From Planctomycetales bacterium (GTDB lineage Bacteria; Planctomycetota; Planctomycetia; Pirellulales; Lacipirellulaceae): a stretch of DNA of 48,980 nt. Numbering within the stretch: the first letter of the stretch is position 1; the number at the start of each line of letters is the position of its first letter. The DNA is taken from positions 1-48,980 of the forward strand of contig JAGQOU010000037.1 of the NCBI GenBank assembly GCA_020427145.1, in the 5' to 3' direction. Under the pieces are notes generated by a model that made no database searches, had not been told where the DNA came from, and worked only from the letters and a program-made list of their open reading frames with translations. The translations under genes were made by a program, and so were the position numbers. Below, in pieces: positions 45,020 to 45,421 of this stretch.

Positions 45020-45048
45020 TTGTCGCGGGCGCGGCGGCGACGTATCCT
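45020..45048 (+). promoter_or_regulatory. candidate promoter of feoAB
   Basis: TTGTCG (45020-45025) and TATCCT (45043-45048) are 17 bases apart, with eight of twelve consensus positions matched. It is followed at once by the palindrome at 45061-45079, so a repressor bound there would sit just past the transcription start (near 45055). Confidence 0.45.
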
Positions 45049-45060
45049 AACGTTATTGTG

Positions 45061-45079
45061 ATTGAGACGCTGTCTCAAT
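45061..45079 (+). promoter_or_regulatory. 19-bp palindromic operator candidate upstream of feoAB
   Basis: ATTGAGAC, a GCT centre, then GTCTCAAT form a perfect 8-3-8 inverted repeat, 61 bases before the feoA start. The length equals a Fur box (19 bp), and the gene it precedes is an iron transporter. The sequence is not the E. coli Fur consensus, so the regulator (Fur-like, DtxR-like or other) is inferred only from position. It is too short and lacks a T-run to be a terminator. Confidence 0.6.
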
Positions 45080-45139
45080 AACGCCGTCGCCGCATCGGCG
45101 GAAAACCTCGGGTCGGAACAGCCTACGAGAGTTGGAGTT

Positions 45140-45421
45140 ATGGTCACCCAATCGCGCGATCTTGCCGAAGTGCCGCCGCTGCCGGCTGTGCGGCTGACCG
45201 ATGTCGCCTCGGGCGTGGTGGCCCGGGTCGCCGAGATCGCCGGCCACTGCGACGATTCGCTGCGACTCAAGGCCCTCGGCCTGTGCTCCGGTCGCATTGT
45301 CCAGATTGCCGCCGCGGGCGACCCCATGATCGTCCGCGTGGTGGGAGCCCGGGTCGGCGTGTCGGCGCGGCTTGCCGAGACCGTGACCGTCGTGCCGCAA
45401 CCGAATACCGCAAGCCGCTAA
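45140..45421 (+). CDS. feoA: ferrous iron transport protein A
   Basis: This small protein of 93 residues has the SH3-like FeoA fold: VRLTDVASGVVARVAEIAG, then DDSLRLKALGLCSGRIVQIA and DPMIVRVVGARVGVSARLAETVTV. FeoA is the cytoplasmic partner of FeoB and stimulates its Fe2+ transport. It is longer than most FeoA (about 75 residues) through an N-terminal extension. The ATG at 45140 is chosen as the first after the operator; GGAG is only two bases before it, so a slightly later start cannot be excluded. feoB follows 54 bases downstream in the same direction. Confidence 0.92.
   Translation: MVTQSRDLAEVPPLPAVRLTDVASGVVARVAEIAGHCDDSLRLKALGLCSGRIVQIAAAGDPMIVRVVGARVGVSARLAETVTVVPQPNTASR

Follow-up and report, generated by a model that had tools for sequence, protein, structure and literature searches.

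The perfect palindrome that precedes feoAB in the window, i.e., the whole stretch of 48,980 nucleotides of planctomycete DNA that was analysed, is very likely a Fur operator at the feoAB promoter that would shut feoAB when iron is plentiful. This reading draws on features that can be seen directly in the DNA, namely, the site, the promoter, the joint conservation of the two, the one Fur gene detected in the genome, and half-sites in the promoter of that gene. With ample ferrous iron, metal-loaded Fur would sit on TGAGA-N5-TCTCA, between about +7 and +25 relative to the predicted start, and bound Fur would block RNA polymerase, so that feoAB would be off; with scarce iron, Fur would leave and FeoAB would import Fe2+. 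Binding by Fur, iron as the metal, and repression as the effect are what would be expected from the protein family, and the transcription start is placed approximately, by its distance to the -10 element. The features of the region are listed in Table 1.

Table 1. Features of the feoAB upstream region and genes (window positions)
Feature	Position	Strand	Basis or remark
-35 element TTGTCG of the predicted feoAB promoter	45020..45025	+	sequence and conservation in relatives
-10 element TATCCT, spacer 17	45043..45048	+	sequence and conservation in relatives
Left flank CGTTATTG	45051..45058	.	near-mirror of the right extension, but displaced
Transcription start, approximate (predicted)	45055	+	about 7 nt past the -10 element
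Fur-type operator (putative)	45061..45079	.	7-1-7 unit TGAGACG-C-TGTCTCA at 45063-45077
Extended right half-site GTCTCAATAACG	45072..45083	.	first 11 bases recur in the genome's fur promoter
feoA, 93 aa	45140..45421	+	PF04023 FeoA, 1.5e-8, 35 bits (cut-off 23)
feoB, 670 aa	45476..47488	+	TIGR00437 feoB, 1.2e-147, 493 bits (cut-off 316)

Conservation of the palindrome and promoter ahead of feoAB

The palindrome is formed by the arms ATTGAGAC (45061-45068) and GTCTCAAT (45072-45079), which are separated by GCT, and within its 7-1-7 unit the outer five bases of both arms are a perfect inversion. The distance from the TATCCT -10 element to the palindrome is 13 bp, and that from the end of the palindrome to feoA is 60 bp. 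A promoter candidate with a spacer of 17, followed by a perfect 8-3-8 palindrome ahead of feoAB, had been described in the initial annotation and was confirmed here. The window contains one perfect 8-3-8 palindrome compared to a mean of 2.05 in 20 Markov shuffles, and the rarity of the palindrome was dropped as evidence because such shuffles yield as many. The palindrome itself is the only match in the window to both arms at up to three mismatches (9 of 100 shuffles had one), and TTGAGACN3GTCTCAA occurs as a single copy in the draft genome (5.86 Mb, 72% complete). The promoter is weak, with 4/6 positions per hexamer and 8/12 together, and was missed by a promoter scan with a threshold of 9/12. 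Since the palindromic shape is not rare and the promoter is weak, both become convincing only through conservation.

FeoB was found in 268 of the 296 genomes of the order. The set of 101 feo loci comprised 30 from the FeoB search, 60 further upstream regions, and 12 from the motif scan, less one locus that begins inside FeoB (L055); after removal of 15 in which no FeoB start was found and two with under 500 bases, 84 upstream regions were available, and in each of these the best TGAGA-N5-TCTCA match within the last 550 bp before feoB was recorded. The exact box was present ahead of feoAB in 58 of the 71 relatives of the same order that had not been chosen by the motif, and in 71/84 upstream regions when the 12 motif-fetched ones and the window itself are included, counts that are not independent events because the loci come from related genomes. 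The best match had one mismatch in five regions, two mismatches in two, three in five, and four in one, i.e., an exact box was missing from 13/84, and eight of these were off by at least two mismatches. Among 1680 mononucleotide shuffles, two exact boxes and 12 with one mismatch were obtained. The motif is thus present upstream of most orthologous feoA genes, and this conservation supports the earlier suggestion that the palindrome may be an iron operator of planctomycetes or be read by a different metal sensor. The proposed search upstream of feoA was borne out for TGAGA-N5-TCTCA, which is common, but the full 14-base TTGAGAC-N3-GTCTCAA is much rarer, being found anywhere in 25 of the 296 genomes of the order (reversed control: 3); besides the window's own locus, 12/24 loci with this longer motif sit ahead of feoB, as assigned by FeoB matches.

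The promoter is conserved together with the box. The arrangement TTGNNN-N16-18-TANNNT, with the -10 element ending 8-20 positions before the box, was found in 65 of 75 box-bearing feo upstream regions, namely, in 21/25 among L026-L054 (shuffled mean 0.2) and in 44/50 among the other loci, which include the 12 motif-fetched ones (shuffled mean 0.5), and this backs the promoter candidate of the initial annotation. In a relative of the same genus (L027), TTGCCA-N17-TATCTT lies at the same distance to the box as the promoter in the window.

The classical 7-1-7 Fur box is TGATAATNATTATCA, and the window box agrees with this sequence at 8/14 positions by eye; unlike in that box, the core in the window reads CG-C-TG instead of AT-N-AT. 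Judged by its letters, the feo box has the 7-1-7 frame of Fur sites, with the A/T core mostly replaced by C/G. Over the 75 feo boxes, in which the outer TGAGA and TCTCA are fixed by the search itself, position 6 is C in 43%, A in 29%, and T in 27%, position 7 is T in 75%, and position 9 is A in 69%. The window box is atypical at two positions: its position 7 is G, as in 9% of boxes, and its position 9 is T, as in 3%. The right flank of the feo boxes of the order favours TCTCAATAA. In Xanthomonas campestris, Fur-regulated receptor genes carry AATGAgAATcATTctCATT, as given in an excerpt of PMC1790865, and 10 of the 14 non-central positions of the window box agree with it by eye. Shared with that Fur box, as far as the excerpt describes it, are the 15-bp inverted repeat, the outer TGAGA and TCTCA, the spacing, and the location near an iron-uptake promoter. 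The remark that the site differs from the classic Fur box therefore applies to the replaced A/T core, but not to the frame TGAGAnn-n-nnTCTCA, which is close to the excerpted Xanthomonas consensus.

In gel shifts of Aliivibrio salmonicida Fur on 5'-AATGATAATAATTATCATT, the changes A8C and T9G each weakened binding much, and the A8C/T9G pair weakened it slightly less than either change alone (PMC7536154). In our own alignment, the left half TGAGACG has C and G exactly at these positions, so that the window box may be weaker for a classical Fur, or the planctomycete Fur may tolerate the C/G core.

Candidate regulators of the putative operator

The search of the genome yielded one Fur-family gene, at L056 (PF01475). 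It lies on contig C422, apart from the contig of feoAB, and its protein scores 92.2 bits against PF01475 (cut-off 23.1). PF01475 was present in 40/43 genomes of the family, and a match at 1e-30 or better in 229/296 genomes of the order. The nearest solved relatives of the L056 protein are Campylobacter Fur structures (6d57, 1.8e-24; 4ets, 2.1e-24), followed by weaker matches to PerR and Zur-type chains (2fe3, 5.3e-16; 2o03, 1.3e-13). Among the NCBIfam models, two Fur models come first (NF051892, 76 bits vs a cut-off of 220; NF006999, 68.5 vs 146), and the protein scored below every curated NCBIfam cut-off, including those of the Fur, PerR, Irr, and Zur models. By these matches, the protein would work like a Fur while lying outside the curated Fur equivalog cut-offs. 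A residue that could account for the C/G core was sought in this protein, without success; where other Fur proteins have their minor-groove Lys, a site that aligns with a Lys of Campylobacter Fur, the L056 protein and the family segments have Arg. The feoAB1 operator of Magnetospirillum gryphiswaldense, whose complex with MgFur has been solved (4RB3), is a feoAB Fur site with a 7-1-7 unit, according to an excerpt of PMC11353095; the L056 protein is only a distant homologue of MgFur (4raz, 3.1e-19).

The stricter motif ATTGAGACN3GTCTCAATA was scanned in public prokaryote genome contigs, and at least 116 loci were obtained. Among the 116 loci listed, 10 have the site where a Fur-family gene begins, with the Fur alignment starting 15-69 bp after the site, and 14 have it at most 500 bp ahead of feoA or feoB, one locus having both Fur and feo. 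A DUF1559 alignment begins within 200 bp of the site in eight of the listed loci, a ZnuA-type alignment alone follows it by 79-80 bp in one, and for 84 none of the seven query proteins was found at those distances (tblastn, E 1e-4, a threshold that may miss distant relatives). In 7/10 Fur loci, the whole site precedes the likely frame start, and in the other three (L304, L336, and L377) it overlaps a possible start codon, the frame at L336 being open far upstream. Among the titled matches listed, Fur-adjacent loci include Cloacimonadota, Neomarinimicrobiota, Acetothermia, and Atopobium, and a hand count of the 80 titled matches listed gave 34 Planctomycetota and 24 Verrucomicrobiota. Seven of the 116 contigs were already part of the order scan (L265, L292, L310, L315, L344, L358, and L360), so that 10/14 feo loci and 7/8 DUF1559 loci are additional. 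The wide scan may be taken as partly independent support for Fur as the binder.

It is unlikely that the operator is bound by another Fur-family sensor, i.e., a Zur-, Mur-, or PerR-like protein that senses zinc, manganese, or peroxide, as the box belongs to a ferrous iron transporter and a single Fur-family gene, with Fur as its best matches, was found in the genome. Nevertheless, Zur boxes have the same 7-1-7 frame as Fur boxes, and boxes also precede ZnuA-type metal-binding genes in two relatives (L006, by Pfam; L007, on the contig of L265). In the wide scan, L336, L343, and L377 have the palindrome where a Fur-family gene begins, with a ZnuA-type gene next in line; judging from this arrangement, the palindrome may serve other Fur-family sensors too. 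Moreover, a second Fur-family gene may be missing because the genome is 72% complete, and the same-genus relative has a second, weaker Fur-family match (8e-12).

Binding of the palindrome by a DtxR/MntR-type iron or manganese repressor is very improbable. DtxR boxes are also palindromes of about 19 bp, and three Fe_dep_repr_C (DtxR-type C-terminal) matches are located within 7 kb on one contig of the same genome (C52, L166), two of them within reading frames about 500-550 codons long, with an internal TAG in one frame. However, the 11 kb around these genes contain no TGAGA-N5-TCTCA better than three mismatches, the motif accompanies Fur-family genes instead (in the 116 loci listed of the wide scan, which were compared with Fur, feoA/feoB, ZnuA-type, and DUF1559 queries), and the base pattern of the palindrome differs from the DtxR type. 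Still less probable is an RNA hairpin in the feoA mRNA, acting as a leader structure or attenuator: any DNA palindrome can fold and the box is at the start of the predicted transcript, but the letters themselves are kept, exactly TGAGA and TCTCA in 71/84, and the feoA leader palindrome gave no Rfam match and no terminator. In addition, the seven upstream regions with one or two mismatches revealed no clear Watson-Crick compensation by eye, a comparison in which a single mismatch cannot reveal compensation and G.U pairs would remain in L094 and L106. Lastly, a chance palindrome is hardly credible: although the composition of the window would let about two perfect 8-3-8 palindromes arise, the arms are conserved throughout the order in the same place before feoAB.

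Separated half-sites in the fur promoter

The gene for the putative regulator of feoAB, Fur, carries parts of the same motif in its own promoter (L056:1939-2110, contig C422), where TTGAGAC occupies the -35 position of a TAGAAT promoter and GTCTCAATAAC-N14-GTTATTGAGAC lies 104 bp beyond it. With fur upstream regions whose initial 45 coding bases are identical collapsed into one, there were 37 in the window's family, 23 in a second family, and 16 elsewhere. A pair of TTGAGA and TCTCAA that are 50-110 bp apart was present in 22/37 (shuffled mean 0.02) and 13/23 (shuffled mean 0.01) upstream regions of the two families, respectively, and missing from 15/37 and 10/23; it was found in 0/16 of the others, among which L120 is a distant Fur-family paralogue. 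The distances between half-sites A (TTGAGA) and B (TCTCAA) are 90, 92, and 101-105 bp in the window's family and 57 and 67-69 bp in the second family. Half-site A is the -35 box in the window's family and follows the -10 element in the second family. A third half-site, C (TGAGAC or a close variant), often occurs 27-34 bp after B, with none listed for seven loci that have the A-B pair. The spacings are kept though A shifts from the -35 box to just past the -10 element, and little conserved DNA lies between the half-sites.

A periodicity in these spacings had a nominal p of 0.0024 with a best period of 11.6 bp, and with four cluster means p was 0.00225 at 11.4, values that are suggestive only since the four clusters were picked after inspection and the period was scanned. 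The half-site spacing in the two families is perhaps helically phased. A tentative possibility is that Fur autoregulates in these two planctomycete families by bridging the separated half-sites A, B, and often C. At the fur promoter, a dimer or oligomer on distant half-sites would then make a small DNA loop, in an AraC-like manner; we know of no established case of such looping for Fur. No Rfam RNA was found in the fur leader. Fur of Helicobacter pylori compacts DNA at the arsR promoter, a precedent for several spaced operators, as far as described in an excerpt of PMC5007355; there, whole operators are involved, in contrast to the separated half-sites of the planctomycete fur promoters. As a lead, the half-site arrangement at fur is more unusual than the feoAB operator.

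Other candidate targets and implications

In eight genomes, 31 exact TGAGA-N5-TCTCA sites were counted compared to 15 for the reversed control. This roughly two-fold excess means that the pattern alone is unspecific and that weight should be given only to sites in a suitable position before genes, and the genome-wide count was dropped as a regulon finder. TTATTGAGAC was likewise rejected for that use (15 vs 11 for the control, with both orientations summed over four genomes); in the window's genome, it has only two sites beyond feoA and fur (L381 and L392). The same genome contains four exact TGAGA-N5-TCTCA sites (control: 0), the one at feoA and three others, at L165 before an MFS transporter gene, at L167 before a YceI gene, and at L168 before an ORF. 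At L167:203-1179 on contig C54, TGAGAATGAATCTCA is located about 210 bp ahead of the gene for a YceI-domain protein, and this site resembles the classical Fur box more than that of feoA does. At L165:2001-2015 (contig C88), TGAGATGATTTCTCA lies ahead of the MFS transporter gene, and at L168:2300-2314 (contig C13), TGAGACGACGTCTCA lies 39 bp ahead of the 247-aa ORF; the L165 and L168 sites may each be a real target or a chance occurrence.

Exact sites in relatives include those at a ferritin (L181), at ZnuA-type proteins (L006; L007 by likeness), and at DUF1559 proteins. Ferritin genes had been proposed as targets, and this is weakly supported: the exact box was found at 1/12 ferritin-like loci of five genomes; in the window's own genome, none of the three ferritin-like loci has it, and ferritin was dropped there as a second target. 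Fur-type boxes also occur ahead of or near the starts of genes for DUF1559 (PF07596) proteins or proteins with a similar pseudopilin-like N-terminus (L002, L003, L004, L170, L172, L173, and L179; L272, L285, L328, L337, L348, L352, L355, and L358). L004, L172, and L179 were assigned to DUF1559 by Pfam and the rest by tblastn or by eye, and L004 and L358 are on one contig. At L170, the box is inside the called ORF, before the prepilin-like part, and at L173 it is at the end of the preceding ORF. Visual inspection of the ORF lists of ten loci revealed no gene neighbourhood that would account for the boxes ahead of DUF1559 genes. A subset of the large planctomycete DUF1559 family may be under iron control.

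Among the papers listed from an open-access collection, no title or displayed abstract described a planctomycete Fur box, and no paper with the literal string TGAGAATNATTCTCA was found in that collection. The window site is very probably an ordinary, well-supported Fur-type feoAB operator with a slightly unusual centre. It offers a testable consensus for iron control in planctomycetes, namely, TGAGA-N5-TCTCA, which in one family is often TTGAGACTNAGTCTCAA-like. The motif also points to further candidate iron-responsive genes, i.e., those for the YceI protein, DUF1559 proteins, and metal ABC transporters.
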